From: Thuidium tamariscinum
Taxonomy: Eukaryota > Streptophyta > Bryopsida > Hypnales > Thuidiaceae
DNA: 64,000 nt
Direction of reading: 5' to 3'
Assembly: GCA_947034885.2 (NCBI GenBank)
Contig: OX344757.2
Location: 24,112,001-24,176,000 of the forward strand
Numbering within the stretch: position 1 is the first letter of the stretch; each line of letters begins with the position of its first letter. A model generated the notes under the pieces. The model saw only the letters and a program-made list of their open reading frames with translations. It searched no databases and was not told the origin of the DNA. A program made the position numbers and the translations under genes. Positions 26,751 to 57,709 of the stretch are shown here, in pieces.

Positions 26751-26754
26751 ATAT

Positions 26755-29685: not shown

Positions 29686-29712
29686 CAGGGTTGTCATAAC
29701 AGACGAGTTAGG

Positions 29713-29762
29713 GTCACCGGACGTCCCGGATGGACGAGCGAACCGGACCGGACGGACGGCTC
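29713..29762. repeat. Left subterminal GC-rich block, shared with the right end
   Basis: CCGGACGTCC, GGACGAGCGAACCGGA and GGACGGACGG occur just inside the left terminus. The same pieces (CGGACATCC, GGACGGACGG, GGGCGAACCGGA) occur at 49489-49540, in direct rather than inverted orientation relative to each other. They are candidate transposase contact sites. Confidence 0.6.
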
Positions 29763-29817
29763 CATTTTTCAAAGTAGTGGGATTTTTTTGGGTTGACACG
29801 TCAGCTTCGAAAGCGAG

Positions 29818-30055
29818 ATCCAGGGCGCGGACGTCTCCGTCAGGGCGCGGACTCGTACAGGTAGGGCGCGGACTTCATCGTGTCACCGTCAGGGCGCGGA
29901 TGCGTACAGGTGGGGCGCGGACTTCACCGTCAGCGTCAGGGCGCAGACTTCAGCGTGTACGTCAGGGCGCGGACGCGTATAGGTAGGGCGCGGACTTCAC
30001 CGTTAGTGTTAGGGCGTGGACCTCAACATAAGGGTCAGGGCACGGACGGTTAGTG
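29818..30055. repeat. Left subterminal array of GGGCGCGGAC motifs
   Basis: About ten copies of (C/G)AGGGCGCGGAC or close variants, spaced roughly 17-30 bp, lie about 130-370 bp from the left terminus. The block is far GC-richer than its flanks. hAT transposases generally bind repeated subterminal motifs, so this is the expected place for such sites. The open frame that runs through it (29777-29986) is a by-product of the repeat. Confidence 0.75.
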
Positions 30056-30386
30056 AGTTATGGGTTCTATAGGGTAGAAGGTCCGTAACCCCTTAAGGAC
30101 TTTGTCAATTGTGAAGTGGTCAAACTTCTTATGTGAATTAATTTTAGCCTTTGAGTATGGGTAGTGTTCAAACAACAATCTGAAATTTATTCTAATTCAA
30201 ACTCTTAATTCTATATCACCATGAGAAATTACAGTTTGTTTTGTACCAATTTTCTAATTGTTATAATTTTTGGTGCAAAAAATGAATGTACATGAGTACA
30301 AATAGAAAAATCAATCTAAATTATTTGAAATAACCTTGGAAAGTAAAAGTAGTAATAAGGCTTAGCATGCAAAATTTTCAATTGGT

Positions 30387-31825
30387 TATTTTATTTTGTA
30401 CAATGGGGTACCAATAAAAAAAAGTCTTTTTCGAATTCGCAGTGAGAATTTTTTTGGTATGGCCAACTTTGAAAGCCTCCCGAGAGCTCAAAAAGTAGTA
30501 TTTAACCACAAAATTTTTACCACAGCTTAACCTTGAAGTTAATTATATGTATGACAAATTTCAAGGCCAAAAGATTTAGGAAAGAAAAGTTATTCAAAAT
30601 CTATCAAGATTGGTAGTGGTGAGAAACATTTCACTACTTTCAACTTTGACACCTTTTTAAGGAGTAAGGATTGAGTCTTGGTTCTTTTGCCGTGAAATTT
30701 TTGTCATGGAATAATCTCTATGTTCTTAATATGTATAAAAAATTTCAAGGTAAAAAAAAGTTTGGTGAAGAAGATATTTGAAATCTCTCAACATGTGTAG
30801 TTCTCTAAAACTTTTGACAATTACCAATTTTGACACCCTACCAAGGGCTAAAAAATTGGTTTCTTACCATGAATTCTTTTTGGCTGTATTTATCTCTATG
30901 TTCATAATATATGCTACAAATTTCAAGTTAAAATGAATTACCAAAAAAAAGATATACAAAATCTCACAACATGTGTGGTTATGAGATTAAGTTCTTGAGT
31001 CCTTAGTATAGTATTATTTTGTGGAGCCAAGTTTGTCACGAATGTAGAAACTCAACCTCAAAACTACACATGTTGAGAGATTTTGAATATCTTTTTTGAG
31101 GTATGTGTTTTGAACTTGAAATTTGGAACATCAACATAAAGTTGATTTTATTCAAATAATTCCATGTTAAATAGACAAATTTTCAGCCCTTGGGAGGGTG
31201 TCAAAGTTGGCAATAGTAAAAAATTTCTCATAACCACACATCTTGTCAGATTTTGTATATCTTTTTTTGGGTAATTCATTTTAACTTGAAACTTGTAGCA
31301 TATATTATGAATATAGAGATGACTTCACCAAAAAAAATTCATGGTAAGAAACTTATTTTTTAGCCCTTGGTAGGGTGTCAAAATTGGTAATTGTCAAAAG
31401 TTTCAGAGAACTACACATGTTGAGAGATTTCAAATATCTTCTTCACCAAACCTTTTTTTACCTTGAAATTTTTTATACATATTAAGAACATAGAGATTAT
31501 TCCATGACAAAAATTTCACGGCAAAAGAACCAAGACTCAATCCTTACTCCTTAAAAAGGTGTCAAAGTTGAAAGTAGTGAAATGTTTCTCACTACTACCC
31601 ATCTTGGTAGATTTTGAATAACTTTTCTTTCCTAAATCTTTTGGCCTTGAAATTTTTCATACATATAATTAACTTCAAGGTTATGCTGTGGTAAAAATTT
31701 TGTGGTTAAATACTACTTTTTGAGCTCTCGGGAGGCTTTCAAAGTTGGCCATACCAAAAAAATTCTCACTGCGAATTCAAAAAAGACTTTTTTTTTATTG
31801 GTACCCCATTGTACAAAATAAAATA
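30387..31825. repeat. 1.4-kb fold-back (inverted) repeat
   Basis: The left arm (30387-about 30990) is repeated in reverse complement at about 31220-31825 with very few differences. The outer ends are TATTTTATTTTGTACAATGG and its complement; inner landmarks include GAGCTCTCGGGAGGCTTTC against GAAAGCCTCCCGAGAGCTC. The spacer of about 230 bp and both arms contain a degenerate unit of roughly 185 bp (AACTACACATGTTGAGAGAT, then ACTTGAAATTT, then AGGGTGTCAAA). The block is non-coding and lies between the left motif array and the transposase 3' end. Confidence 0.8.
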
Positions 31826-32217
31826 GCCACATCACAGACCTTGAAATTAAATTCAACTATCAAACCCAATTCATCATTGAAGTCAAAGTGCCTCTCATAT
31901 TAAATAGAATTAGCCTACAAAATATATTACATGATTGCACTCACCAATGTTTCCAACATGCACGTCAAAATGTCAAATACAAAAACATTATAGACATATT
32001 AGTAGGCTTCAATCTTTATGATAACCAAAAGTATTTATAAAATTCATGCATTGCAATTTGCAAAGTACAATAACAATACAATGAATCTATACTTCCAAAA
32101 TATGCCCACTTTCTCATCGGTTATCTAAGACATTCCTTTGGCTTCTCGTCCATCTTTCTTTTAATTGCTACAATTATCTTCAACTCTTAAAGACACAAGA
32201 TCTACCATTGGTGCAAC

Positions 32218-35200
32218 TCAGTTATTGAAACGACTCGACCTACGAACTTCTTGGGCACTAGGATCCACTACATTAGCATCTCGAACAACAACATCATCAT
32301 TCTGTGGTGCCTCATTGCAGTTTGGATCATCCTCGTCATTGGCATCTTCGTTGCTGTCATATTCATCTTCTGCTTCACCACTATCTGTGGTCCAATGTCC
32401 CTCAATCTCTGAGTTTTCATTTCGAAGCTCTACAATAGTTTGACCTTGACTACGTTTGCGCTTGAACCTCTTATGTCGCAGTGCGTTGGGGTCTTCTGCA
32501 TCAGAATTTATAGTGGGCCCACTTGAAACTCGAGGAACAACAAATGCCGGGGTTGACCTATTAGGTCCTGGTACGTATGTATTCAAGAATGGTTCTACCA
32601 CCCTATTTGAGTCTCTTGCCCCTATTCCAAGGAGTGGACGATGAGTAGGCCTTGACGATGATGCTTCTCCAATATGTGGACCTTCTGTTCCTCCACGACC
32701 TCTAGTCCCTCCACGGCCTCCAATCCCTCCTCGGCCTCTAGCCCTTCCACGGCCTCCCATCCTTCCACGACCTTGTTGATATTGACTCACTTCATGATGA
32801 ATGGAGGGCCGAGGTGCCGTAGGTGGTCTACCACCAACAATACCACGAGAAATGTTTTGAGGAGTCATATCAACATTTCTCATAGAGCCTAACCCTTCTT
32901 CAAAAGGTCTTTGGATGGCATTGGAAGTTGCTGGTGAAGATGGGTCTAGGGAATGTGGCGCTTGGCTAGTTCGGTCAGAACCAACTGGAGTGGGTTCACG
33001 CGCAAGGTCTTCTGGTGCGTCAATAAATGCAAAAACATCATTGTAGTCTACATGCTCTGGATCAAAACGCCTTCTCACATTACTTGCCGATTGATTCCTT
33101 CCAATAGGGCGTGCCATTCTTGCATTTCTAACGTTTCTGTCATGGTGTCGTTCAACAACTGTATTGCTACGAACTGATGCCCCCATTCTTGTAGGCCCTG
33201 TATTGCCATCTTGATTGTGAGAAGATCCTCCACAATTTGGATTTGCAGTCCTCCCCATGTTTCCGCCACCATTTCCATTTCCACCACCATTTCCATTTCC
33301 GCCGCGATTTTCATTTTCACCGCCACTTCCATTACTGCTTCCATTTCCATTTCCGCCGCCATTTCCTAGAGGGAGGTCGTCATCATTGTCGTTGTTGTTA
33401 TGGGAGATACCATCATCCACGTTATCGTCATTTGGATTGGCGGCCTCTGAAGAAGATGACAAAGCTTGGACTTCTGCGACCCCTTCATTTTGAGGAAGAG
33501 GAGGTGAAGGACTACGACGAGGATTGGGTACCCAAGGACCCCAACGACCACCAACGGGTTCTTCCTCTCCATCGTCAGCATCTCCATAGTAGTTTCTCGC
33601 TTCCTCGAGGTGATCGGCACCTCGCCTCCAAAGATCTGGGTTCGCCAGATACTCTTGAGGTGCGTCATTGGCTTCCACACCAACCTCTTCTTCTTCCTCT
33701 GCTTGCATTGCGTCAAATTCCCGATTGCGTTCATTCAAAGGGATCGGACCAAGGGCATCTGGATCGGAATCCTCCAAGTACATATTTGCATCATACCAAC
33801 GAACTGGATCGGCTCCTGGTCTTTCCTGAAGTACACGGCTATTGGTATAAATATATACCAATGACTCTGCCTTCGCGGGGGCTAATCGATTTCGGACCCT
33901 ATTGTGAACAAAGGAATACATACTCCAATTCCTTTCACAAGAGCTGGCCGAACACGTGAGGGATAGAATACGCACGGCAATTTTTGAAAGAGCCCGATCT
34001 CCAACCCTATGCCACCATTGGTGGGGAAGCATTTGTGTCACACGGATGTTGGATGTCTCAGTTGCACTGTACGGTCCACTACCCTCCTCAAATTGAGTTA
34101 ATTCCGCCAACACATCATCAAAAGTGACACCCACTACATCTTCCATTTTGTGGATGACTCTGTACAATGCACGTAGCGTAGTTCCGTCTACCCTGAGCGC
34201 CACGTTATCCAAGAGGTATGGATTCAAAAGGGTCGCGGCGTAGTGCGTATCTTCAAAAATCATGTCCCATCTTTCATTGAAAGATCTCTCCAAAGTGACT
34301 GCTATGTCATCTCGTAAGCTAAAAGGTGGTTCTCTCAAAGAATACACGTGTCCTCGCAAGTTGTGCATCACGAGCCACGCCCGACCCATGGCTGGTTCTC
34401 GTCCATCAAACACACGCAAAGCCTTCAATACGTCTTCAGTCATGTACACGTAATTCACACATCGTTGCCAAAAGGCCACATCTTCAATGGTTCTTTTGAC
34501 ATTACGTGAAGCGGTAGCTGCCTGTGGTCCATTCTGTTCGTTTCATAGGGTATCATAGTAATTTATAACACGGGGGTGGTTATTCAACCGCTCCAAGACT
34601 CCTCTAAGTTTCACCACTCGCTGTAACATGAGGAAATTACAAGCAAAGCGAGTTTCGCTAGGCACTACGAGTTGTAGGTTTGGACTCAACTCACAAAAAA
34701 CCGACATGGTCGCATGATGGTTTCGAATGTATTGGCACAATCTTCTTGCCCTATCAATTAAATCGGAAAATTCCTGAATCTTGGCCCAATCTTCCAACAT
34801 CAAATCCAATGCATGTGCCATGCAGCCTTGCGCAAATATGTGCGGATAGGTTAGAGTAATGTCTCTCAATGCCCCAAGCATGTTTGCTGCATTATTTGTG
34901 CAAACTTGTGTCACATATTTGGAACCCACCTTCTCAATGTAAACTTTCATTTGGTCTGCTATATAGCGCATGGTTTTCTTTTGTGAGGTAGTGTCAATTG
35001 ACCCAAAAAATACATCACCTGCGGGGCATGACATCATCACATTCATGAGGGGCCTCCGATTGACATCATCCCAACCATCGGTACATATCGTCACCTCGTA
35101 GTGCTTGACAGCAAAACCAACCTTTTCTTCAATCTTCTTCTCGATTTGCAACCTCCTCGGTTCAATTAAATTAGTCCTGAACTGATGGTAAGAAGGTGGA

Positions 35201-35816
35201 CTATATTCAAACCTCGCCACTGAGGTTGCCCTCACAGCCTCAATGAAGGCTGGATGCCTTGCCACATTAAATGGCAGTATGGCACATTTGCTTCATAGAA
35301 AAAGCTTGCCCACTTGTCATCCAACTCCCTCCTCTTTGCAATGTTGAATGCGTCCGCCATGTGTTGCTGACGTAATGATCCCGATCTCGTAGAATTTGAA
35401 CCTGCAAGACTATTGGACGTTTGTAGAATTTCATTTCCTTCAGGAACGTTTGCCCGTTCTTCCGCTCTCCCACCAGTGACCCCATCCGTCACCTCATTTT
35501 CAGTGGCTTCGCTTGAACTTGCAAGCGGAGTTGCTCTAGTCGGTCCACTTTGAATTGGTTCTCCTTCACACATGTTCCCGGCATCCACTCGTAGTGGGAC
35601 AAAACCTGTACAATTGGCAAACCTATGTCGCACTTCACGAGGCATACTTCGACAAATTGACCTCTCTGATTTCGCGCCATATCCGAAATGTGCAAAAGCA
35701 CGCTCACGTTTGTAACTGAAGGTCCTAGTACAGAAAGCACAAGTCACCTTAGTCCCATTCTCCGTGAAGTTCAGCCACGGTTCCCAGTCCTTGGTTTGCT
35801 TCCTCTGACTTGCCAT
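32218..35816 (-). pseudogene. hAT transposase (BED finger, DUF659, hAT dimerisation), broken
   Basis: The gene would encode a cut-and-paste transposase acting on the element ends. Reading on the minus strand, the first segment starts at ATG 35816. It has a BED-type zinc finger with C26-x2-C29 and downstream H43/C55. The next frame (35265-34543) is the DUF659 catalytic region: TDGWDD with the first acidic residue (D63), TNNAANM where TDNA is expected (N124), and GCMAHALDL (C148, H151). After an in-frame TGA at 34545-34543 the same frame continues to 32218. That part has a hAT dimerisation domain (about residues 150-215 from the GTG at 34479) with SASSCERNWS, the catalytic glutamate, and a long tail rich in Asn/Gly, acidic stretches and RGG-like repeats. 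A one-base shift at about 35245-35265 separates the first two frames (NVPY, then PFNVARHPAF). A TATA box lies at 36065-36072. Assignment is firm; this copy should not make an active enzyme unless rescued. Confidence 0.9.
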
Positions 35817-36064
35817 TGTATTTACAGATAATTTGAAATGCCTTCCCCTTCTTTGTGCTGAATTTAAGAAGACAGAAGATCTAACGGACAAAGTATCAGT
35901 AACATCAGTTAGCGCTAATGCTTGAACTGATTTTGACATCACCTCAGCAGCAAACCAGGGCAATCTATCACCCAAGTAGACTCACAAGGAGCTCAAAATG
36001 AATTGAAGTCCAAGAGATAGAGGCCAAGGTGACAAATGTAGGGAATGCAAGGTTCAGGATTTCC

Positions 36065-36072
36065 TTTATATA
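36065..36072 (-). promoter_or_regulatory. TATA box of the transposase gene
   Basis: TATATAAA on the minus strand lies about 250 bp upstream of the transposase ATG (35816). It sits immediately downstream, in transcription sense, of the motif array at 36110-36480. The same TATA string occurs at both sides of the cargo promoter. Confidence 0.6.
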
Positions 36073-36109
36073 CTTGGGGAAGGTAGGGGTGCTGACTTCA
36101 CCGTTGTCC

Positions 36110-36480
36110 TTGTCAACAGGGCGCAGACTTCAGTCCCAAAGTCTAAGCACACCTGAATCCCTACCGTCAGGGCACGGACTTCAGGGCGGGGACGGGAAGT
36201 CAGGGCGCGGAATTCTGGGCGGAGAATTTGTGAACTTTGACAACCTTCAAAATGCACACCTGAATCCTTGGTATCAGGGCGGGGACGGGAAGTCAGGGCG
36301 GGGACTTCAGGGCGGAGACGGGGAGTCAGGGCGGTGAACTTTGACAACGTTCAAAATGCACACCTGAATCCCTAGCGGTCTGGGCGGGGACGGGAAGACA
36401 GGGCGTGGACTTCAGGGCGCGGACTCGAAGTCAGGGCGCGGACTTCAGGGTGCGGACTTGAAGTCAGGGCGCGGACATCC
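36110..36480. repeat. Motif array upstream of the transposase promoter
   Basis: More than a dozen copies of CAGGGCGCGGACTTCA or CAGGGCGGGGACGGGA are interspersed with two copies of a longer unit (AACTTTGACAAC-TTCAAAATGCACACC at about 36229 and 36336). The core motif is the same as in the terminal arrays. Its position directly upstream of the TATA box suggests a cis-regulatory role, for instance autoregulation by the transposase. Confidence 0.7.
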
Positions 36481-37190
36481 TCGTCCAGCACTATTTGCAC
36501 TGCACTTGGACATGAGATTTTTGAATTCACCTTTTGTTGGAGCGGAAGAACCATTAATGTAACCAATTACAGCTTGTTCTAAATTCAAAGAAGACCATGA
36601 CAGCAAGATGCCACCTTAAAGAGCTCAACGGCCTAAGATTTGGAAGGTATTTATGGAAGTGCATGTCCCGTTTCTTGTGTTGCAAGATGTCATTCCTTAG
36701 TTCTCCTAACCATTTTACCACTTTGAAGCAAGAAATATTTTATTTCCCAAAATAAAAACACAAATTCTTTGATTTAGGAATGTTTAGGAAATACTTAATA
36801 AATGTATAGGACATACTTAAACCATATCATTCATACAAAACCTTTGGCTTTGTTGTTTAATAAATGCAATGGTTTTTTCATGTTGTTTTCTTTTAAAAAA
36901 AGAAGATGCCAAAATTAAGAGATCAACAAAAAAAGATTGCAAAGGAACTTCTTGAAAGACCATGTCCCCTTATTTGATTTGGAAGATGTCATTGTTTACT
37001 TTGTAAAGAAACAACATTGAAGGAAAATATATGTACTGATGAAAACAAACAACTCAAAATATTTTATTATTCATTTTCAACATTCCTCAAGCAAATTCTT
37101 TGTTTGCGTAAAGGCTACGTTTCATAAATTATGCTCAATTTTGTTGAATGTTTAAAGTATTATTGTTTGGCTGAAAGGGATTATTTATGA
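36481..37190. other. Non-coding segment duplicated at 38930-39190
   Basis: 36481-36720 matches 38930-39190 in the same orientation (landmarks GACATGAGAT/GGCATGAGAT, TGGAGCGG, GAAGACCATGA/CAAGACCATGA, GCAAGATGCCA, CTAAGATTTGGAAG). Both follow a motif array, so an array-plus-flank unit has been duplicated inside the element. There is no gene. Confidence 0.5.
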
Positions 37191-38260
37191 AATGAAAGTT
37201 ATTCAATTCTTGTAGACTGATGTTCACCACATTCAATTCTTTAAACAATTGCTATAGGGGATCAATTCTGCTTTACGATTTACTAAATCTTACATTCTTT
37301 TGGATTTACGTAAACAAATTCATTTTTGGTTTATATTTCGTACAAGGGATTTTTTTTAATGAATTACTATTGCTTTGTTTGTTTTTTGTTTTTTGTTTTT
37401 AAAACGAGTGGCAAACCATTGCATTAAATGAATACTATTTTGTTTTATTTCAATCACATGGAAGGGATTCACTTTTTACCATTCTAACTACAACTCTACA
37501 AGGGATTCTTTTTGAACGAGAACTTAGATCTTCCATTCTTTTGGATTCACGTGAAGGGAACTGTTTTTGTGGATGCTTGTTACAAATAATTTGTGTAGCC
37601 TAAGGTATGAGCATCATATTTTTGAATTCACTATTCTTATAAGGGGATGCATTTTTGACCATTTTAACTACAAGGGATTCTTTTTGAACGAGAACTTAGA
37701 TCTTCCATTCTTTTGGATTCACGTGAAGGGAACTGTTTTTGTGGATGCTTGTTACAAATAATTTTTTTAAAACTTCCAAGTTCTGTTTCTTAGATTCACG
37801 TAGAAGGTAGTCATTTCTAAATAAAAGGTACAAGAGATTATTCTTTTGAATGAGAACTTTACATTATTTTGGATTCACATGAAAAGATTCACTTTCTTGA
37901 ATAATTGATAGAATGCATTTTTTAAATGAACAAATGAGTTTCATTTCTTCAAATCCATTATTCATAAGCAAGGATTCTTTTTTCTGCATAATAACTACAA
38001 GGGTTTTTGTGGGGAAATGAAAAATTACAAGTTATATTTTGTTCTTAATGTGAAAGGATCCATTTTTATAAATACTTGTTACAATGGATTCTTCCTTAAT
38101 AAAACGTACAACTTAAATTGAAGTAGAAAGGTTGTAAATGGAATCCACAATTAGAAATAATTGCTACAATAAAATCTTTTTTACATGAACTTACAATACA
38201 TATTTTTCAGATGCATGACATAGGTTCTTTTCTGAAGGTTTAGAGTACATTGATTTGTTT
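37190..38260. repeat. Degenerate tandem repeat block with a 96-bp exact duplication
   Basis: Many degenerate copies of a unit containing AAGGGATTCTTTTTGAA and GGATTCACGTGAAGGGA. Positions 37497-37592 and 37669-37764 are identical over about 96 bp, a recent duplication. Short ORFs here are by-products of the repeat. Confidence 0.6.
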
Positions 38261-38310
38261 TTTAATTCAACCCTAAAACCATCTGAAAGAAAGTCAAACA
38301 ATCCAAACTC

Positions 38311-38357
38311 AAACCCTAAACCCTAATACTCCAAACCCTAAACCCTACACTCCTAAA
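38311..38357. repeat. Short telomere-like tract (AAACCCTAAACCCTA)
   Basis: Two near-identical units, each with CAAACCCTAAACCCTA, contain the plant telomere repeat CCCTAAA and the telo-box AAACCCTAA. With only about four hexamer/heptamer units it is too short for a telomere relic and may instead be a promoter-type telo-box. Confidence 0.6.
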
Positions 38358-38399
38358 ACCTTTGAACCCAAGAAGCCAAGGAGTTGGAGGCTTGAACTT

Positions 38400-38640
38400 C
38401 ACTGCGTTGGCGCTACTCAGGGCGTGGACGTCAGGTGAGGGCGCGGACTCCAAGGTGCGGACGCCATGGCATACAGCAGAAGAGGGAGGACTTTGAAATG
38501 CGATCGGGCATGAGAACCAGGGAAGCGAAGGAGTTGGAAGCTTGAACTTCACTACGCTGGCGCTACTCAGGGCGTGGACGTCAGGGCGCGGACTCCAGCA
38601 CAGGGCGCGGACTTAATGTCAGGGCGCGGACCATTCTTGG
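38400..38640. repeat. Internal GGGCGCGGAC motif array
   Basis: Copies of CAGGGCGTGGACGTCAGG and CAGGGCGCGGACT lie in a direct duplication of about 75 bp (first copy about 38378-38454, second about 38530-38596) that starts with AAGGAGTTGGA and GCTTGAACTTCACT. No gene start is evident next to it now. It may mark a lost promoter or a duplicated element end. Confidence 0.6.
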
Positions 38641-38844
38641 TGTGCAAACGTGCATGCACTGCAAATGAGGTTGACTTCCCGCATGGGATCCCTCCTTGCT
38701 CCTATTTATTGCTCTTACAAGATTGTGTCCCTCCTTTCATGGAAACCAGGAACCATTAAATTCAGTCATGCTTTCTTTTAGATTCTTTATAGTGATGGAG
38801 AGACAAGAAAGCTTTCTCTCACCAATGTTTTCGTGACATTGGCT

Positions 38845-38945
38845 ATGTCAGGGCGTGGACGCAGGGCGCGGACTTGAGGGCGAACAATTCAAATACGTGG
38901 CGCGGACTTGAAGTCAGGGCACGGACGTGGTCGTACAGCACAGGA
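38845..38945. repeat. Small internal motif array
   Basis: Four copies of the core (TCAGGGCGTGGACG, CAGGGCGCGGACTTG, TGGCGCGGACTTGA, CAGGGCACGGACG) precede the segment shared with 36481-36720. Confidence 0.6.
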
Positions 38946-39419
38946 GGGAGGACTTTGAAATGCGCTTGGGCATGAGATCCTTCAATCCTTCCTTTTCTTG
39001 GAGCGGGGGAACCTTTAATTTTAGGAAGAACAACTTGTTCTACATTCCGACAAGACCATGAAAGCAAGATGCCAAATTGAAAAGCTCAATGGACTAAGAT
39101 TTGGAAGAAACTTCGTGGAAGAGCATGTACCCTTTGTTGTGGTGGAACATGTCGTTCCTTATGTCTTCTAACACTCCGAACTACTTTGAACCTTATTTGT
39201 GTCCCCCAAAAGAAACTAGTACTTTGAACTAAAAAGAATTTTTAGATTTAAAAAAAGAAGTCTTCTATTTACAAATGTTCCGGATATTTTGAAGAAATAT
39301 TTAGGGAATATAGAGGAAATGTAGTGTACTAGATACAAGGGTAAAACTTAATTTGTTTAAAATGAAAGAAGTAGTAGAGATTTAAACAAAAAATTGTAGA
39401 CCTCCAGTACGCCACTTCA

Positions 39420-41480
39420 ATTTTTCATCTCATCATCCCCTTTCCAATTTTTTATGCATCAAAAGCAAAACTATCTTATCCGAAGTCAATGCCATCTTTT
39501 TATTTCTTAATTCAATTCCTTTTCCATTTCTCTTGCTTCATTAATTAGCAAAACTCTTATATTTTTGGCCTCCAATGCAAAAATTCTTTTATGCGAAGTC
39601 ATTGTCATTCCTTTTTGTTGAATTATTTAGCCTCCTTGTTTTGTGGCATCATTCCTTTTTTATTGAATCGTTTTATCTCCTTCTTTTTTACTTCATTCCT
39701 AAAACTCTTGCATTCAAATTGAATGCCAATTTTTTTTTACGTCATTCGTTTTCCTATTTATTTTCCATTAATTAGCAAAGCTCTCATTCCCCAACTCTAT
39801 GCCATCCTTTTTTTGTTGCATCATTCTATCTTTTTTTGTCACCATTTCCTTTTCAGATTTTCATTTCTATTGGTCTTCATTAATTTCTAGAACTCTTTTA
39901 TCGTAATTAGCAATACCAATATTTATTAGTTGAATCATTGCATTGCCTTTCCTAAATGTATTTGGCTTCATTGATTAGCAAAGCTCTTTCATCCAATGTC
40001 AATGGGATTTTTTTTTGTACCACCAGCTAACCAACCTCTTTACTATTTTTTATTATGTTTTTTATTTTATTGTTTAGCAAAACTTGTCCATGTAACTCAA
40101 TACCAATTTTTTTTCGCCCTCATTCTCGTTCCTTATTTTTTAATCCTGAACCGAAATCTTTTCCGTCTTAATAAATTGTAATTTTTTTTCCCGTCAGTCC
40201 CTTTCCTATTTTTTTTATTCATTAGAAAAACTCTTCCATCCCAACTCAATAATAAATGTTTTTTATGGTAAGAAATGGAAGTCTTTCCATTCGCTTTCCA
40301 TTTCTCGTTTATTAAAATAGGTAATCAAACACAATGTTTGTTTCATATCTCTTTCACATTTGTTTGCTTTTATTAAGAACATCTAAAATGCACTTTCACT
40401 CCAACTAAATGACGTCTTTTTTCCTTACCTAATTTTTTTCATAGATTGGAAATGAATCCCACTCCAATTCAATGACTTTTCATTTCATTCCGTACATGTT
40501 TTTATGATTGAATCCTATTCCAAGTCAATGACATTTTACTTCATCAATTTCAAGTCAATGAAAATTGATTTTTTCGCCACTAAATTTTTTTATATTGGGT
40601 AACCATTTTTTATTAAATATGTACCTATTTCCATGCCAATTTAATCATCCCTACTTACTTTTCCCATTTTTTTGTACTTTGGATAACAATACACTTCCAT
40701 TGTAGTTCTGGCAATTACGTGATAGGAAATTGAAGGATGAGTGTTTGGGATTATAGTCAATCACTTTAACTTGTAAGTGAAGTTTAGAATCATTTCCAAA
40801 TAAAATTTACGAAAGCTTGGGTCTCTCTACCCCTCTTTTGGGTGCATTTATTTTGAAAGCACTTACATTCCAAGTCAATGCCTTTTCAACTTTTCTTTTG
40901 TTGGATTCATTTTTTTTTCATTTGTTTTGGCTTAATTAGCATAATTCGGTTCCATCTCAAGTTATACAAGAAGTAAATGGCACTACTCTTGTCTTCCTAA
41001 CTTTTTTCCAACCGAATGCCATTCATTTTTCTTTGATCATTACCTTCCTAATTCTTCGAAATTCATTAGCCAAATGTTCCATCCCAATAGAAGACGATTT
41101 ATTTCCTAAACTCTTTATAGTTTTATTTTATTGATTTGGAAGATTATTTTGTCCCAATTGAATGCCATTTTCTGTGGATATCATTCCCTCCCTAATTGTT
41201 TTTGGCTGCATTTGCAACATTATCCCATGCCATCCCAATGCACTTTATTTATTGTATCATTCCCCCCTATTTTTTTGGGGCTTGATTAGCGAAATTGTTC
41301 CATCTCACCAGAATGCCCTCTATTTTTTGGTGGTATCTCAAGTGAATGCCATTTACTTGTTTTCTATCATTAGCAACATTAGAAATGAGTTTTTTTCCAA
41401 TATAATGGCATTTGTTGTCCTTCCCTAATTTTATTCATTCATGGAAAAATGGAAATGAATCATAGTACAATACTCCAATT
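39420..41480. repeat. Satellite-like block, left flank of the cargo
   Basis: Many degenerate units of about 60-80 bp read, in reverse complement, as TGGCATTGA-TTGGGATGG-AGAGTTTTGCTAATTAATGAAG. This is the same unit that fills 47230-48800 in the opposite orientation. For example, 39427-39520 pairs with 48125-48196. ORFs of 60-90 codons here have no coding character. Confidence 0.65.
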
Positions 41481-41804
41481 CAATGACATTTCATTTCATG
41501 ATATAATTTTTGTATATGTATGATGTTGTTTCAAATGAGTATGTGCAAAAAAAACACGAAGTGATTTTGGCCTGGATTTTGGGCTAAATAATATATATTT
41601 CATAAGCGTCATAGAATACATAGTTGGAAAAGTATATGACGAGGTTACCATGACCATGACACCATCTAAAAATGCATGTGCCAATATCTAATATAACGAA
41701 TAATATCTATTGCCGAGATCAAAATTCTATAAGCCTATATTAAGCTAGGACCCTAAGTCTTCTATGAAAACATAAGTTCACTAGCTAGATAGTAGAAACT
41801 TCAC

Positions 41805-44089
41805 TTAGTCTATGTCCATTGCACTGCCACTTGGGCCAGCCTCGTTGTCATGTGTCCCTGCAATGACGGGAAGGTCTTCGTCCGAGCCTAAACGAAGTCT
41901 ATGAACTGCGGATCGAGTTCTCCGCGCTGGTCCATCTTCTTCCAATACAGCCCTCATGATTTGTGATTGTTTGAGGCTCTCAAGACATTGGCGAGTTCGA
42001 GGGCTATGCTGTTCAAGCAAGAAATCCATCCCTTCATGTCGAAAGGTTTCTCGCCACTCTGACTCCTCTAGTTGAACTAGTTTAGCAGGGTCAGGCATGT
42101 CAATGTCGTCCACCATACGAATCCCATCGTCGTTAGTAATACGAACTCCATCCCTACTCCACAACCACTGTCTAGGATGAGGTCCAAATTGAAAGTTTTC
42201 AAAAACCTCGTCCCAATGCCCATTGAAGCACTGATAGAAGAAATTCCGTCGTCCTTGGCTAAACTTGTCCTTCATTGGAATCAAGTGTTGACACACCTCC
42301 ACTATTTGAGCTGGATCTTTTTCCCAACCCCATTCGGCAAAAAGGTTTTGTTTATCCAACGAATGGACCTCAATTTCCAACTCCACACCAAGTCAGTTCC
42401 CCACTTCTGAGCATGATCAGGGGCATTTTCAGCATTATATTCCCAATGTAGTGGCATGTACGAAACTAATCCAAACAAATCATACAAGTGCTCATGGAAA
42501 GGAGCCTTGCACAAGGAACACTGTCGACGAACAACCATCAAGTTGATCAAACAAAATGGATGGTACAAGTGTTCGTACGTGCCTAGGTGCATTCCACCTT
42601 CAGGGCCAAATGGATTTAGACAAATGGGACACGTAGTACAATCATACACGAAGCTTGAAGGATTTGGCCACAATAATAGTGGATTGCCGTTCTGGTCGAG
42701 GGAAGAGCCAACTTCATTCTTGAAATCCCAATGGTGTTTGGACCAATCGATGATTGTTGTTCCACCACCAATGTCTTTGGTCACCATTTCATCCATGTTG
42801 AAATGATCATCCACGAGGGCCCACGATGTCAACCCAAAAACCCTCTCTTGATTGTGTGCGCCATAATTGTTGTCGATTTTTTGGAATTCTGACACCATTT
42901 GCTGAGTCCTATCAACAGAAAAGACGCATGCCATCTTCCATTGGTAATATTGCTCCATCAACGCTTCCAATTGTTTTTTCAATATCAAATTGTTTGCAAG
43001 CGCGTCCGTCAATTGAGTGCTCCGGTCAATTGGCATTGCTTGACCTGCATTTGTGGGTAATTCTCCAAATGACAGTGCATCATCTTGAGTACCCTATGTT
43101 GCACCAACTTCAACATGTTGCACTGGAATTTCATCATTGATTGGAGGCCCTTGCGCTCCCCCTCGTGGATCCTGACCATCATTGGCCAATGTGGCTGCTT
43201 CAAGAGCCTGCCGCAGCGCCTCTATCTCACGTTGTTGTTCACTTATAATATTGTTCTTGTCTTTGATTTCATCCCTCAATTTATTAACATCTTCATACAA
43301 AGAATGCAGATCCGCATTCCTCTCTTCCACTTCAATCCTCAAACTCTGAATTCGATCTGCAGTAGCTGTAACATCAACAATTCCTATTGTTGGTTCGTCA
43401 GTAGCTGGCACCTGTCCCTCCACAACATTTTCTTGTACACCCTCTTCAGTTGCACGCTCAGCCCTCCTCTTTTTAAGCCATAGATTTGTTCTATAGCTGA
43501 GTGCATGTGGCACATGAGATCCATCAGAGTCGTTATCTGTAGTAGAGTCCTCAGTGTCATGTAATGGTGGTGCTTCAACTTGTGTAGTTGTTTTACCCAG
43601 TCCACCTTGCGGGTACCTTTTTACCCCCCTTGGAATGAATCCATTTGCTGGGGTAGGAATGTTGACTTTGTCCCCCATTGTCTTCAAAGTTGACCAATCC
43701 ACTCTCTTGTTCAACTTCAGTTCCGCATGTACCCCTCGTGCAATGAAGAGATGCATTTCATTGCGTTTGACGTTAGGGACATCATACAACGCCTGGTACA
43801 CTTTGATGCACCGATTTGTGAACTCCTCATCAATGCAATGTTTTAAATTTGCCTTGTGGAAGCGTCGGTGATAGTTGTGTCGCTCTTCTAGGAAGACCTT
43901 GTCAATGTGGCACCACTCGATGTAATTGACACAATTTTCGTAAGTCCATGGGTCAGGCACGTCTTCCCACCCTTTGAATGCAAGCTTTGCGGGATTATGT
44001 AAAACATGCAACCGCTTACGATGTTTGTTTCCTGGTCGTAGTCGGGTCTTGTCTTGTTCCTCCTTCCTTGGTCTTGTCGGTGTAGCCAT
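41805..44089 (-). pseudogene. hAT cargo gene 1: coiled-coil plus degenerate RING-H2 protein, broken
   Basis: The gene begins at ATG 44089. The first part (to the TAG at 43096-43094) has a basic N-terminus, a globular block (WTYENCVNYIEWCHIDKVFLEER) and a C-terminal coiled coil (residues about 250-315 with EIKDKNNIISEQQREIEALR). The frame continues unchanged past the TAG to a RING-like domain. Counting from the Met at 43036, the ligands are C136-x2-C139, Y154-x-H156-x2-H159-x2-C162 and C173-x2-C176. Position 154 should be the third ligand cysteine and is tyrosine. A single-base shift near 42340-42350 leads to the last segment (EWGWEKDPAQIVEVCQ through an acidic tail MDID, stop at 41805). RING-H2 proteins are often E3 ubiquitin ligases, but the lost ligand makes activity doubtful. 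It is transcribed divergently from the kinase. The partner or target is unknown. Confidence 0.75.
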
Positions 44090-44184
44090 TTTCACGGGAA
44101 AATGTGAAAACCTCCCACGTAGCAATCAAAAAGACCCCGCACAACGCTCACAACCAACTCAATGAAGAGGTGGAAGGCTGAGAG

Positions 44185-44545
44185 TATGCAGGGCGGGGAC
44201 AAGTGAGGCGGGGACGGGTTTATATAGGGGCAGTCGGGGACATCAGGGCGCGGACGCCATCGCTGTCAGGGCGGGGACTCCATCGATGTCGGGGCACGGA
44301 CGCCAATGTCAGGGCGGGGACTCCATCGTTGTCGGGGCGCGGACGCCAGTGTCAAGGCGGGGACTCCATCGCTGTCGAGGTGCGGACGCCAGTGTCAAGG
44401 CGAGGACGCGTGTATCAGGGTGGGGACTCCACCCTGATATCGTGTTGGGGCGGGAACGCGATGGGGATGGGGCGGGGACGTGCGCGGGGGGACTATATAA
44501 AGCGAGTCCCCGCCCTCATTCCTTTGCCAAGTCCGCGCCCTATGC
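44185..44545. promoter_or_regulatory. Divergent promoter: motif array between two TATA boxes
   Basis: A minus-strand TATATAAA (44219-44226) lies about 130 bp upstream of the RING-like gene ATG. A plus-strand TATATAAA (44494-44501) lies about 197 bp upstream of the kinase ATG. Between and around them are some fifteen copies of CAGGGCGGGGACTCCATCG or GGGGCGCGGACGCCA, spaced about 25-30 bp, with two copies in reverse orientation at 44505-44545. The shared array suggests both cargo genes respond to the same regulator as the transposase gene. Open frames across the array are artefacts of the repeats. Confidence 0.75.
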
Positions 44546-44697
44546 CTCACATGCTAGTTCGTTCCCACGGCCTGTGCGAGTGAGTTTGGTGGGTGCTGGG
44601 CTTGGCCTACATATGTGACCTGGTTTTTTTGAATTTTTTTGAAACTTTCTTGCTTCGGGATTGATACGGAGGCCCATTGGAACTTTTTTTTTCCATT

Positions 44698-46925
44698 ATG
44701 GCAGGTGAAGGGAGTGGATCGGTGGACAAACGTCCTATGTTTGTAGACTTGGATGATGTCGGTGAAACGGTAATTCCATGTACAAACACGTTGATGGCCT
44801 CAGGTTCATCAAATCCTTCCTCATCAGGCCAGAAAAAACGCAAGAAAGAACAAAATCCCCAAATACCTAGACATGAATTCATAGTCGAAGGGAGAAAAAT
44901 AGCTGTGGTGTTCTACACTCGTCGAAGTACAAAAATGTTGAACAGGGAGTATGTGTTGCTCAACGAAGAGGGTGAATGCATGGTTGAGTGGCTCATTTTT
45001 GGCAAAAGTCCAAGTCCCAAAAGTACTTTTTTGTGAGTATAATGTTTGACAGTGAAATGCTTGATAGTTTATTCTATAAGAAACAAATTATAAAAAAAAT
45101 CTAAAAGTACCTAGCTTTTTGAGCGCCCCTAGACCTTGAAAATTATTATACTTTAGAAAAAAAAAATTTAGAAAAAAAAAATATTAGCTATAAGAAAAAG
45201 ACTTCATAAAATCCAGGCTTTTAAAAGTCATTTAAAAGTCCTTTGCAAACAATCAATACATGTCTATACAACAAGATTATGGTTTTTTCAAAGTTTAGTA
45301 AATTCCTCCTTAGAATCAAAGTCCTTTGTATGAATATAAATACTTAAGACATCTTTAAAAAGTCCTTGAAAAATATGCTGACAGCAAATTCGTCACACTC
45401 CTATATTTTCAAAAGTCCACTACACTTTCATAAAATGCTATAAAAATCATTTAACAACATAGCCATATTTATCATGAAGCTTAAGACCCTAAAATGAACT
45501 TTTTTTTCTTCTTCTAATTTTTAAAGCATATCCTACATGCATTTGAAAATTGGTTGAATGCAATTTTTGCCATTGTAACACCGTTTTGAGCCCATGAACC
45601 ATGCATTCACCCAAGAAGGATACCACAAACTGACGAGGGACCTGCGAAGGGAGCTGGAGTCAAAGTTTGAAGAATCAGAAGAATTCAACAACTTCTCAGA
45701 TTATTGGTTGCACCAAGAGTGGCTGGATAAACAAGTGGTCGCCTTGACAACCAATATAGTGTGTAATTGGTGTTATCACACGAGTAAGAAAGAAGATGGT
45801 AGCGACTGGGACACGGAGGACAGAGAGATGGTTACAAAATTGAAGGAGATTCAAACGTTTGCTCAACGATATTCTTCTTCACGTAAAAAAAAGCAAGCAC
45901 CATGGAAAGTGACAATTGAAGAAGCGATAACGGCTCATTGCGTGAGTGGAATATTCAAGTGGCTAGAAAGTTCCGTGAAAGTCATCCCCATGCCGGAACA
46001 AATTGCGATTGGGTTGTATGGGACCGTGAGGAAGGTGATCTTTACGAAACTTGAGAGCATTCCTAGTTGGATATTTTTTGCTGGGAAGAGCTTGAAGACT
46101 AAGAATGAAAAGGAGAAACACCAAGCAATCATCAATGAGGCAGGGGGGTGTCCAGTGAATCATCCTGGCATCATTCGAATTGCGTACCTCCACCCTAAAA
46201 CAATGGAAGGCTACACACTATGGTGGAATGGAGGATTTCTAATTTCTTTCTTGTCCAAATGCAATGCGAAAGTGAGCGAAGCACTGGATGTGGATGAGAT
46301 TGAGAGTGAAATTTCTACGGGGCTGACGAAAGAGGAACTTTCATGGGTTGCAACGTATCGGAGAAATCGAGTGAAATTGGCATTGTCATTACTTGTCATT
46401 GTGGGGAAATGCCATGATGCGCAGTACATGCACAACGACATATCTCCATCCAATGTTTTGCTCCATTTTGATAATTGGGAACGAAATAGGGTGTACATAG
46501 GGATATGTGATTGGGGACTTTCTAGCCGAGTTGTGGAGAAGGAGCCATCAAGGTATGGCTATCCCAGTATGGAGATCCTTGCGAAGGAGAAAAAAAAGCG
46601 AAGGTTTGCGGCCCCAGAATTGTTTTATGTATACGAAGAGCAGGGTTCATCAAACTCCATTGAGGCCATGCAAAAAACGCATTTGTATTCTATGGCAGCT
46701 GATGCATATGCGGTGGGATGGATAGCTTCTGCAATTTGGAATGAAGAGTGGGACCCTAATTACTTCACAACGAAAAATCCAGAGCAGTATCAGAATTTCA
46801 GGATCAAATTGGGAAGCCTCGTAAAAGAAGATGTGCGTGAAAGGGCAACAGTGCCAAATGTTCTAGACAAATTGAAGAAGGCCCCCCACTGTTGGATGAT
46901 GCCGGATTGTTGTTATTGTACATAG
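44698..46925 (+). CDS. hAT cargo gene 2: protein kinase
   Basis: Exon 1 runs from ATG 44698 to about 45032, with a basic patch GQKKRKKE that could be a nuclear localisation signal. A strong GTGAGT donor starts an AT-rich intron of about 560 bp. Exon 2 runs from about 45591 to the stop at 46925. Numbering from Met 45594, the kinase domain shows a Gly-loop G140-x2-G143, K165 (FAGKSLK), E182 as the helix-C glutamate, a catalytic loop H280-N281-D282 with N287, a DWG magnesium motif (D306), APE at 340-342 and D370 of subdomain IX. All residues usually needed for catalysis are present, with HND for HRD and DWG for DFG. The substrate is unknown. The simplest donor/acceptor pair (45032/45591) does not preserve phase, so either an extra exon, another splice site or a small lesion exists there. 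The exon 2 frame has a stop at 45576-45578, so it cannot extend far upstream unspliced. Confidence 0.8.
45033..45590 (+). other. Intron of the kinase gene (borders tentative)
   Basis: AT-rich, no ORF, begins GTGAGTAT and ends TTTTGAG before CCCATGAACC. The combination leaves two bases after exon 1 and then runs out of frame, so at least one border is wrong or the gene carries an indel. Confidence 0.45.
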
Positions 46926-47229
46926 TATTTTGTTTTTAATACTTTTTGTAGTTTAGCATATATTTCAGGCATAGAAGAAAATCATCCTCATAGAGGAGCC
47001 TATGTACCTACTTGGCAATTGCCAAACAGCATGAATATATATTAAATCGGATGTGTAATTGTGTACCATACTCAAAATCCCAAAATATATTAATATGCCA
47101 TTTCATTGTTCTTTCCTCATGGCATTTTTTATGACTTCTATGAATTGATGATAAAACGTAAATGAAAACTATGGATGCAATAGTTTGGTATAAAAATGCA
47201 TACACTTAATTTTTTTCACTATGCCTATG
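46926..47229. other. 3' flank of the kinase gene
   Basis: AT-rich sequence with no coding signal, probably holding the 3' UTR and polyadenylation region of the kinase transcript. Confidence 0.4.
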
Positions 47230-48820
47230 TTTTAGGAATTAATGAAGCCCCCCCAAAGAAGGGAAAATGAATGATCCAACAAAAAAATGAATGACATTGA
47301 AGTAGAATGGAAGAATTTTAGGAATGAAGAGAAAACAAAAAAAGGAAAAGGAAAGATGGAACAAAAAAATAATGGCTTTGACTTGGGATGGAAGAACTTT
47401 AGGAAATATTACAAAAATAAAATAGGGAAGGGAATGATTCAACAAATAAAGAGAAACTATGAGTTGGAATAAAGTAGTCCTGCTAATTAATGACGGTAAA
47501 CAAAAAAGAAAAAGGAATGATTCAACAAAAAAGAGAACAAGAACTATGAGTTGGGATGGGAGAATTGTAGGAATGAAGCCAAAAAAATAGGGAAAGAAAA
47601 TATAGAACAGAAAATGAACATTTTGCTTTCAATTGGGATGGAAGGGTTTTAGAAAGGAGGCCCCCCAAAAGGAAAGGGAATGATGGAATTATAGAAAAAT
47701 GGCTTTGAATTAGGATGGGAGAGTCTTGTTAATTAATGAAGCAAAACAGAAACGAAGATGGAATTATTCAAGAAAAAATAAAATAAAAACTATGAGTTGG
47801 GATGGGAGAGTTTTAGGAATGAAGCCAAAAAAATAAGAGAGAGAATGACTTAAACCAAAAAGAATGGAATGGAGTTGGGATAAGAAGAGCTTTGCTAATT
47901 AATAAAAAACATAGGAAACGAAATGATGGAACAAATACGAAATGGCATTCAGTTCAGATGGGAGAGTTCTAGGAATGAAGCCAAAAAAAAGGGAAAGGGA
48001 ATGATTCATCCAAAAAATTGACAATGATTTGGAATGAAAGAGTTTTAGGATTCAAGGAAAAAAATAGAAAAGCTTTGTTAATTAATGAGGCGAGAAAAAT
48101 AGAAAAAGGAATGATTTAATCAAAAACAAATGGCATTGACTTGGGATGGGAGAGTTTTGCTTATGATGCAAAAGAAATTGGAAGGAAATGATGGAATAAT
48201 AAATTAAAGTTGTTTGGGTGTTAGAGTGAAATGATTTAACACTTTAAAATTTTTTGGAATGGTGGAGTGACTAAGGATATGGAAATGGTTTGGGTGCTAC
48301 AGTGATGTGATCTAACATTAAAAAAACTTGGAATGGTTTGGATGTTAATGTGATATGAATGATAAACAAAAATAAGGAGGGAAATAAAATGTTGTTGGGT
48401 TTTGAAAATCCGTTTAAGCTTTATGTTAACAAAATGTTGTTGATAAAAGCAAACTCAATGAAAGAGGGATAAGTCCACAAAAAATAAGGAGTCAAAGTGA
48501 TTTCATCTAACAACAAACACAAATTACCATTGAGTTGGGATAGAGTTGGGATAGAGTTGGGATGCCACAAAAAATAAATGGAATTGAGTTCGGATGAAAG
48601 AGTTTTGCTAATGATCAACCAAAAATAAATGGCCTTTGGTTGGAATGGAACAATTTTGGTAATCACATGAAATAAAATAGGGAAAAGAAATCATTCTACA
48701 CTAGACAAATGGCATTGAATTAAAATCGAAGAGTTTTGGTAATGATGCGAAGAAATAGGAAAGGGAATGATTCCGCCAATAAAAATAATCGCAAAGACTT
48801 GGAATGGAAGTGTGCTTCAA
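47230..48820. repeat. Satellite-like block, right flank of the cargo, inverted to 39420-41480
   Basis: More than fifteen degenerate units contain AAATGGCATTGA, TTGGGATGGGAGAGTTTTG, CTAATTAATGAAGC and AAAGGGAATGATTCAACAAA. The reverse complement of the same unit fills 39420-41480. The two cargo genes therefore sit between long degenerate inverted repeats. Confidence 0.65.
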
Positions 48821-49270
48821 AAGTCAATGTCCAAAAGGGGAGGTAAAGTGACCCAAGCTTTTGAAAAGCGTACCAATTTATTTTAGGAGTAATATGATCT
48901 AACATTAAAAGAAATAAGGGATGGTGGAGTGCTTTGGAATATAGAAATGGCTTAGGTGTTAGAGTGATATGATCTAACACCCAAAAAATATATGGAATGG
49001 TGGAGTGATTTGGATATGGAAATGGTTTGCATGTTATAGTGAGGTAATTTAACACCTCCTAAAAATATAAAATGGTGTAGTGATTTGGATATGAAAATGG
49101 TTTGGATGTTAGAGTGATGTAATTTCACACCTAAAAAAAAATGGAATGGTGGAGTAATTTGGATATGAAAATGGTTTGGGTATTAGACTAATTAGAGTGA
49201 TATGATGTAACATTAAAAAAAATATAAAGTGTTGGAGTGACTAGGAAAGTGGGAATATGGAATATAAAAA
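48200..49270. repeat. Second tandem family (GGAATGGTGGAGTGATTTGGATATGG type)
   Basis: Units of about 60-65 bp contain GGAATGGTGGAGTGA, TTGGATATGGAAATGG, TTTGGGTGTTAGAGTGAT and ATGATCTAACA. They lie at 48200-48360 and again at 48890-49260, interrupted by units of the previous family. Confidence 0.6.
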
Positions 49271-49315
49271 GGAAATATGTAGAAGCATATTAATTAATTT
49301 TAAGGTGGTCCCAAA

Positions 49316-49416
49316 TCCCGTCCGCGCCCTGACTATCGTGTCCCCGCCCTGACGATTGCGTCCCCACCCTAACGATCGCGTCCCCGCCCTGATGATCGCG
49401 TCCCCGCCCTGCATGT
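49316..49416. repeat. Right subterminal motif array, inverted to the left array
   Basis: Five copies spaced exactly about 20 bp read, in reverse complement, AGGGCGGGGACGCGATC or AGGGCGCGGACGGG. They lie about 150-250 bp inside the right terminus and in opposite orientation to the array at 29818-30055, as expected for transposase-binding sites that make the two ends equivalent. Confidence 0.75.
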
Positions 49417-49565
49417 TCTGGAATCCACATGGCAGCCACGTGGCCTATTTTTCCATTATCAAAAAGTCAACTATGTGTTGACTCTACCGGACGGGCGAGA
49501 GCTCTATCGGACATCCTGGACGGACGGACGGGCGAACCGGATATCCGCCCGGTATGACAACCCTG

Positions 49566-56980: not shown

Positions 56981-57709
56981 GGGGGATTGCAAGAATGACT
57001 TGTCCTATTTGTTGTCCCCTAGGCTTTGGATAGGTGGTTTTTTGCTTATAACTTTTGCATTATGTCTTTGTTTGCCGTGAAATTTGGAACAGAGGTACAC
57101 ACTAAAGTTCTTGACATTTGGTATTTTTTTTAAATTTTTTAAATTTAATTTACTATTTTTAAACTGACCCCGATTGGATGTCTACCTTGGCCATTTTGAG
57201 GGTTTTTAGTACTATTTCCAACCCTAAATTTCAAATTTGAAGGTAAAAATTGGGATACGAGGACTTTTACTATAGTTACACAAGCTTGTGAAGAGATTTT
57301 CTAAAAATAGTAAAGTATTCACCTTCCACATGTGCTCAAAGTGCACTACCAAGGTACACTTGTAGAGAACACAAAATAACTTTTTTGAAGATGAAAATTG
57401 GTAAGAAGAAGAAACTTTAAGTTAGGAAAAATGGAATTTTTTTGTTTATTTTTTTGAATTTTTTTACTATTTAAAAAAAAATTAAATTCCAAACTACCTA
57501 TTTTCTTGTATTTTTCATCACTCTTTGAGAGAGCATAACTTTTTGAGATAAATTTTTCTAAGTTAGAACTTTCATCTACATACCATTTAGAGTGTTCTTA
57601 ACAATATCCATATTTTATTTCATTAAAAAAAAATTATTCCAAAAGTCACAATACTCCAGTACTAAGGCCATTTTGAGACAAAACCGTGAAGTCATTCTTG
57701 CAATCACCC
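56981..57709. mobile_element. Nested family copy 1
   Basis: The left end GGGGGATTGCAAGAATGACT faces a right end whose reverse complement is GGGTGATTGCAAGAATGACT. The copy is 729 bp. The target duplication is not clear. There is no ORF. Confidence 0.55.

Follow-up and report, generated by a model that had tools for sequence, protein, structure and literature searches.

Evidence for a lineage of giant hAT transposons with conserved accessory genes in Thuidium tamariscinum

The hAT superfamily, which includes Ac/Ds, Hermes, and Tol2, is among the best studied groups of DNA transposons, and its members are thought of as small. The window analyzed here is a stretch of 64,000 nt of Thuidium tamariscinum (assembly GCA_947034885.2, contig OX344757.2, 24,112,001–24,176,000, forward strand), in which 19,880 bp lie between 13-bp inverted ends with an 8-bp duplication outside. 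The question raised by this locus is whether so long a segment is a single mobile element, and what the genes other than the transposase gene do in it. An earlier note on this DNA had described a perfect 13-bp terminal inverted repeat (TIR) and a perfect 8-bp target-site duplication (TSD) around about 20 kb with a hAT transposase inside. The ends and the duplication are exact at the verified coordinates, and the transposase matches the Pfam families DUF659 (E = 7.5e-36) and Dimer_Tnp_hAT (E = 2.3e-8). The segment is very probably a copy of a multicopy giant hAT element, named F1 here. At least two further families, divergent from F1, carry largely the same accessory genes, those for a protein kinase and a coiled-coil RING-finger protein.

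Evidence for movement of F1 as a single unit

Very probably, F1 transposes in one piece, some 17–24 kb in length. The exact 13-mer CAGGGTTGTCATA has 224 matches in the 363-Mb assembly versus 2 for the reversed control; at up to two mismatches, the 13-mer is unremarkable in the window alone (2 found versus 1.73 expected). The bases after the 13-mer sort the matches into 90 with ATAA and 82 with ATAC, which are the two F1 ends, 49 with ATAT, and 3 with ATAG. Some ATAT-ended matches form pairs about 230–290 bp apart and look like a separate short family of miniature inverted-repeat transposable elements (MITEs) with the same 13-bp end. Pairing took the exact ATAA and ATAC ends only (172 of the 224 matches), leaving out the 3 ATAG and 49 ATAT matches, and a pair was defined as adjacent convergent ends less than 60 kb apart. 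By this definition, 132 of the 172 ends form 66 pairs, and 40 ends are unpaired. The F1 ends diverge beyond the 13 bp, one being ATAA and the other ATAC in 62 of the 66 pairs. The short pairs comprise 17 at 3.5–4.3 kb, 1 at 5.6 kb, 13 at 6.8–7.1 kb, 3 at about 8 kb, and 5 at 9.9–11 kb, and the long ones 18 at 17–25 kb and 9 at 34–55 kb. A further four pairs, wider than 60 kb, were included manually; one of them, on C9 and 63 kb long, holds neither the transposase nor the kinase gene and is outside the TSD count.

With the window included, 21 of the 27 F1 pairs of 17–55 kb have a perfect TSD, three match at 7 of 8 positions, and three have none. The search proposed in the earlier note, for other loci with the same ends at giant size, thus gave 26 more pairs, 20 with a perfect TSD of their own, three with 7/8, and three without. 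In the wider pairs (80, 94, and 137 kb), one TSD is perfect and two are at 7/8. The 27 matching duplications all differ from one another, and none of the 870 non-partner combinations of ends over 30 F1 pairs reaches a 7/8 match. Ten of the 39 short pairs were also read; nine have a perfect TSD and one has 7/8.

The gene content of the pairs was determined from genome-wide protein matches, the best 95 of 621 candidates for the F1 kinase and the best 150 of 586 for the transposase, and the counts of these genes hold among the matches listed. Of the 97 kinase entries, 38 are of the F3 type (see below) and 10 are further fragments of a locus already represented; the other 49 entered the pair count (44 in the count of neighbors). 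The transposases used are the 45 F1-type entries among the 150 that reach 88% or higher, without one at 61%. The transposase and the kinase are both found inside 26 of the 27 pairs of 17–55 kb, and the 27th has only the kinase among the matches listed. In the same matches, the 39 shorter pairs contain neither gene, so that ends around the transposase alone, the arrangement that the earlier note had named as speaking against a single unit, were not seen. An F1 kinase lies within 60 kb of 37 of the 45 F1 transposases.

Five of the 27 F1 copies were fetched whole. All have the same block order as the window, with colinear genes and common ends, although one of them (C1:9822276) lacks a TSD. Their gene-bearing blocks are mostly 92–97% identical to those of the window (89% in one block). 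The end blocks are less similar, with identity as low as 80%, and parts of the noncoding sequence are absent or different. The copies with their own TSDs and the co-occurrence of transposase and kinase bear out the earlier proposal that the whole segment moved as one unit.

The extra length of the F1 copies of 34.6 and 36.6 kb is due to nested elements of a second family, F2. The nested F2 elements, found in the F1 copies C1:37114616 and C1:40222593, are 17,065 and 16,825 bp long, have the ends CAGGGTTGCTTCC and CAGGGTTGTCTATCC, and are flanked by the TSDs CATTGTAG and AAGCAAAG. The window is a natural empty site for both insertions, since it is uninterrupted there and contains CATTGTAG and AAGCAAAG once each. 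The extra length of the 55-kb F1 copy is a stretch of 36 kb without giant-hAT genes. A nested giant element was considered as its cause and rejected, because the stretch matches none of the 10 giant-hAT proteins used.

Such insertions might suggest that the segment is a chance composite, put together from unrelated insertions nested within a pair of hAT ends. Indeed, the three fetched pairs of 34–55 kb contain nested insertions, and the window contains one of 640 bp. However, all five whole copies have the same genes and ends, and the perfect TSDs in 21 of 27 pairs, together with the differences among all matching ones, are contrary to this explanation. The whole copies, the F2 empty sites, the co-occurrence of the genes, and the TSDs refute a chance composite for the unit, leaving it with a negligible probability.

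Four short F1-ended elements (about 4, 7, 8, and 10 kb) have only the ends and a GC-rich repeat in common with the window. The possibility that the short elements are transposase-only relatives of F1 was rejected, since none of the window's proteins occurs in the four sampled, the one of about 4 kb being covered from its two ends inward only (3-kb loci). These gene-less elements are probably mobilized in trans. The sizes of the non-autonomous elements, about 3.9, 7.0, and 10.0 kb (C1:1003091, C4:3022917, and C2:23428879), rise in steps of about 3.06 kb, and an internal block of the 10-kb element repeats at a spacing of about 3.06 kb.

Divergent families with largely the same genes

The two nested F2 copies are 98.7 and 99.0% identical to each other over two main blocks and 96.4% identical over a 525-bp end block. 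F2 has open frames for a RING protein (802–836 aa), a kinase (560–567 aa), and a transposase (1032–1061 aa). Identity between F1 and F2 is 29% for the RING protein (E = 3e-81), 30% for the kinase (E = 1e-62), and 40 and 50% for two parts of the transposase (E = 1e-95 and 4e-75). At least 77 full-length genomic copies of the F2 kinase were found at 98–100% identity (77 scored of 635 candidates), and 48 of the 77 have no stop in a hand count. Among the matches listed, an F2 kinase on the opposite strand lies within 6.5 kb of 37 of the 52 F2-type transposases and is not found beside the other 15.

The pairing of F2 ends covered C1–C3 and C4 to 16.5 Mb, taking in 64 of 137 and 100 of 233 end places and 35 of the 77 kinases. 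Among the matches listed there, 45 pairs are below 30 kb, 14 at 0.84–0.93 kb and 31 at 15.5–20.7 kb, and 26 of the 31 long pairs cluster at 16.7–17.3 kb. A listed F2 kinase lies inside 25 of the 31 long pairs and inside none of the 14 short ones. When ten long pairs were read, seven had a perfect TSD and three had none; no combination of non-partner ends (0 of 90) reaches 7/8. The 14 short F2 derivatives are very uniform in size.

The third family, F3, is represented by 38 kinases among the matches listed, 34–35% identical to the window kinase. Comparison by eye placed a transposase, with a frame of at most 1082 aa, about 17 kb from the kinase at many of these loci. The locus C2:6852000–6893500 contains, in order, a RING frame of 645 aa, a 362-aa frame that by eye resembles the coiled-coil protein, the kinase, a 483-aa coiled-coil frame, and the transposase. 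The right end of F3, CAGGGTTTTCTTGT, has different flanks in two copies, and its 19-base form occurs 93 times versus 0 for the control. An F3 end in the right orientation lies within 60 kb of 29 of the 38 F3 kinases, at 21.7–22.0 kb from the kinase start in 16 of these, as measured with 31 of the 93 ends that were picked as near a kinase. Provided that the RING gene on the left is part of it, the F3 element is probably at least 36 kb long. A fourth family in this transposase clade may be represented by frames of about 1134 aa among the matches listed.

The gene orders of F1 (transposase −, RING −, kinase +) and F2 (RING −, kinase +, transposase −) were considered as a rotation. F3, with all genes on the + strand, does not fit, and no claim on gene order is made for this reason.

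In an alignment of one copy per family, the glycine loop, the lysine, HND, the asparagine, and DWG of the kinase are kept in F1, F2, and F3. Likewise, the D, D, and E residues of the transposase are aligned in the three families (TDGW/SDGW, CTDN, and SSCERNW; one copy each). We take these to be the catalytic motifs of the two enzymes. The F3 transposase matches Dimer_Tnp_hAT (E = 1.7e-6) and DUF659 (E = 2.2e-36), the window and F3 matches being above the Pfam cut-off, and the F2 transposase is classed as hAT by alignment only. CAGGG-like inverted ends are found at both ends of F1 and F2 and at one end of F3. A BED zinc finger has no Pfam match, though a CxxC...H...C pattern is seen by eye in the transposase alignment.

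The Pfam scan covered 14 distinct frames of larger size, and it also bears on whether the element is virus-derived or Polinton-like and integrates by means of a hAT transposase. Such an origin would fit the frequent presence of kinase and RING genes in large DNA viruses, but no capsid, polymerase, or packaging family was found in the 14 frames. A viral origin of the RING protein was also examined with two peptide patterns taken from the alignment of this protein and rejected, as none of the 45 matches in viral contigs encodes a relative. We regard a virus-like element as highly improbable.

Since most of this gene set is found again in families only distantly related, the additional genes resemble functional components of the element more than stray luggage. 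We are accordingly confident, though short of certain, that the accessory genes are a conserved module. In the earlier note, the element had been described as a cargo-carrying giant hAT. The giant hAT stands, but an ad hoc cargo does not, because the gene set recurs in families that are about 30–50% identical.

Layout of the window copy and motifs of the families

Table 1. Features of the F1 copy, numbered from the first base of the window
Feature	Position	Strand
Left TSD copy, CCTATCAA	29678..29685	.
Left TIR, CAGGGTTGTCATA, ATAA-type end, transposase side	29686..29698	+
Left subterminal block, 5 × AGGGCGVGGAC, pointing inward	29822..29995	+
Internal inverted repeat, 468-nt arms 30416–30883 and 31328–31795, 98% complementary	30416..31795	.
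hAT transposase gene, DUF659 and hAT dimerization domain, long C-terminal tail	32221..35943	-
6 × AGGGCGVGGAC immediately upstream of the transposase gene	36183..36476	+
Internal block, 5 × AGGGCGVGGAC, without adjoining assigned gene	38438..38873	+
Coiled-coil and RING-finger protein gene	41808..44125	-
6 × AGGGCGVGGAC in the interval separating the divergently oriented RING and kinase genes	44190..44541	.
Protein kinase gene (Pkinase E = 1.1e-9, Pfam)	44665..46925	+
MITE-like insertion of about 640 bp inside the kinase gene	44973..45613	.
Right subterminal block, 4 × AGGGCGVGGAC, pointing inward	49320..49410	-
Right TIR, reverse complement of CAGGGTTGTCATA, ATAC-type end, kinase side	49553..49565	-
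Right TSD copy, CCTATCAA	49566..49573	.

The window copy is full length, and all three of its genes are broken, the transposase and RING genes by indels or stops and the kinase gene by the MITE-like insertion. The transposase gene is distributed over open reading frames at 32218–34479, 34543–35265, and 35232–35975 in three frames, and the RING gene is split into 41805–42386, 42302–43036, and 43094–44125. In other F1 copies, transposase frames of 1220–1278 aa have no stop (six of the matches listed), and in the copy C1:44296231 the RING-protein frame is open over 773 aa and the kinase frame over 537 aa. The MITE-like insertion has imperfect inverted ends of about 26 bp (GGTGAATGCATGGTT...) and is absent from the five other copies compared. 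Rfam at gathering thresholds gives no match in the window. Outside the element, 25366–28036 and 56985–59662 are dispersed repeats, both of which match the flanks of the short element C1:1003091, and 25366–26298 is about 75% identical to the F2 stretch between kinase and transposase.

The positions of the GC-rich motifs are characteristic of each family. The window has 26 copies of AGGGCGVGGAC, in five blocks that all lie within the F1 element, versus 0 in shuffled sequences. F2 contains no AGGGCGVGGAC; its own motif, GGACGGCC, is present 24 times against 0.38 expected and stands upstream of the genes as well as at both ends. F3 also has its own motif, GCGGTCGCC, 24 times (0.02 expected); two are near the right end, and the rest but one are upstream of five frames. 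The main point is that each family has its own motif, similarly placed at the ends and at most genes. Such placement would be explained by a DNA-binding protein that varies with the family, most simply the transposase. Given this double placement, the transposase probably binds the private motif at the ends as well as next to the genes.

As in other members of the hAT family, the DDE transposase would bind the subterminal repeats, cut at the CAGGG ends, and insert the element with an 8-bp stagger, that is, by cut-and-paste. By binding the motif at the ends and at the genes, it would both mobilize the element and regulate its genes. Acting on the transposase or on host factors through phosphorylation and ubiquitin transfer, the kinase and the RING protein may set the activity, the timing, or the escape from silencing. 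Judged from the sequences, the chances that these accessory proteins have a role in transposition or its control are evenly balanced.

Alternatively, the kinase and the RING protein might serve the host cell, for example in growth or defense, with the element being kept for them; retention by host benefit has been proposed for Starships in fungi. The kept catalytic motifs and the many open kinase frames are consistent with this idea, but the copy number is high and many copies are decayed. In addition, the genes are flanked by the end motif of their own family, which points to control by the element. Host benefit is thus an unlikely reason for the presence of the genes.

Several observations weigh against a giant element with a conserved, jointly controlled gene set. 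Three of the 27 F1 pairs and three of the 10 F2 pairs have no TSD. These pairs with intact ends (C1:9822276, C11:5779113, and C8:19970531 in F1; C2:504093, C3:41930999, and C1:42814452 in F2) perhaps arose by recombination between copies. Among the matches listed, 8 of the 45 F1 transposases have no kinase within 60 kb, and 7 of the 44 F1 kinases have no transposase. Two of these transposases and two of these kinases sit together in the 80- and 137-kb pairs, and the remaining unpartnered genes could be truncated or kinase-free elements. The RING domain matches score below the Pfam cut-off, and the 483-aa coiled-coil frame of F3 has no RING. A search for the left end of F3 by way of its duplication, extending some 37 kb from the right end, did not find it, and hence no F3 duplication is readable. 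As to the motifs, their enrichment arises partly by construction and overstates the surprise, because they were chosen from the same blocks, and the internal block of F1 adjoins no gene. Finally, dN/dS (the ratio of nonsynonymous to synonymous substitution rates) in F1 is only moderately low and is similar for the transposase and the extra genes. The means over 15 pairs of six copies, with wide ranges, are 0.68 for the kinase, 0.55 for the RING protein, and 0.56–0.60 for the transposase parts; between two F2 copies, on 12 to 23 changes each, the values are 0.56, 0.86, and 0.57 for the kinase, the RING protein, and the transposase, respectively. These values suggest that constraint on the extra genes is moderate at most and comparable to that on the transposase. 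Retention across families is a stronger argument for the module than dN/dS.

Some of these points would also suit passenger cargo, that is, host genes caught by chance in an autonomous version of a Pack-hAT and without a role. The F1 dN/dS of 0.55–0.68, the transposases without a listed kinase, the broken kinase and RING frames in several copies, and the broken window copy itself all agree with it. However, passengers caught by chance do not readily account for the recurrence of most of the set, with catalytic residues kept, next to transposases of one clade in families that share about 30–50% identity. They account no better for the near-identical full-length F2 kinases, at least 77 with 48 lacking a stop, or for the absence of the transposase, among the matches listed, from all 39 short F1 pairs. 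We consider passenger cargo improbable, to the same degree as host benefit, and retain the conserved module.

Relation to known giant elements

F1, F2, and F3 resemble other hATs in the DUF659 and dimerization domains, the CAGGG-type ends, the subterminal repeats, and, for F1 and F2, the 8-bp TSD and the short non-autonomous relatives. They differ from the usual hATs of a few kb in size (17–24 kb for F1, about 17 kb for F2, and probably at least 36 kb for F3), in two or more further conserved genes, and in a transposase of about 1030–1280 aa with a long tail. Starships, whose mobilizing enzyme is a tyrosine recombinase, are likewise giant units with accessory genes. Their cargo is variable, in contrast to the hAT transposase and the small recurrent gene set found here, and no tyrosine-recombinase captain was matched by Pfam in the 14 distinct frames.

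The closest cargo hAT in print is ToxhAT of wheat-pathogenic fungi, a segment of 14.3 kb that carries a hAT-like transposase along with several other genes between inverted ends (PMC6737239). The same source gives TIRs of 74 bp and a TSD identifiable in no sequenced isolate, and describes ToxhAT as a composite whose movement may be recombination (PMC6737239). Inverted ends around a hAT-like transposase and other genes are common to ToxhAT and the elements described here. Unlike ToxhAT, F1 has a 13-bp exact TIR core, 8-bp TSDs, and tens of copies, and there are several families.

Giant cut-and-paste elements with accessory genes are already in print for KDZ, EnSpm, and Sola-1 of algae and fungi. 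These exceed 10 kb, with KDZ up to about 30 kb, and have transposases longer than 1300 aa, nested insertions, and, in many families, additional genes mostly of unknown function; the hAT families tabled there are not among its giants (PMC12477816). The Thuidium elements are similar to them in cut-and-paste mobility above 10 kb, accessory genes, and nested insertions, but those giants belong to other superfamilies. Only hAT-type Pfam families match the transposase, which sets it apart from KDZ without a direct comparison with KDZ proteins. Pack-TYPE elements including Pack-hAT are described as non-autonomous carriers of captured gene fragments (PMC8903248). Pack-hATs likewise have hAT ends around coding sequence, whereas in F1 whole open frames travel with the transposase (26 of 27 long pairs) and recur across families.

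The word hAT is absent from the accessible text of a 2019 review of giant eukaryotic transposons (PMC6431247). The literature search, with subscription journals and preprints mostly outside its reach, gave no giant hAT lineage with a kinase and none beyond ToxhAT among the matches listed. The statement in the earlier note that such a class is not known to be described needs narrowing, since ToxhAT, without a TSD (PMC6737239), and giant transposons with accessory genes in other superfamilies (PMC12477816) are in print. On the best reading, the elements described here are a lineage of giant autonomous hATs not described before. We lean toward a distinct lineage with a conserved module of transposase, kinase, and coiled-coil RING protein, in which a family-specific motif would let one DNA-binding protein both mobilize and control the element, and which probably reaches at least 36 kb in one family and was recently amplified in another.

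If this is true, a cut-and-paste transposon can carry its own signaling apparatus, with a kinase and a RING protein kept across deep divergence, and the known size range of hATs rises. The elements would also provide a multicopy, recently amplified system for studying the roles of accessory genes, the size limit of hATs, and the co-evolution of end motifs and promoters.

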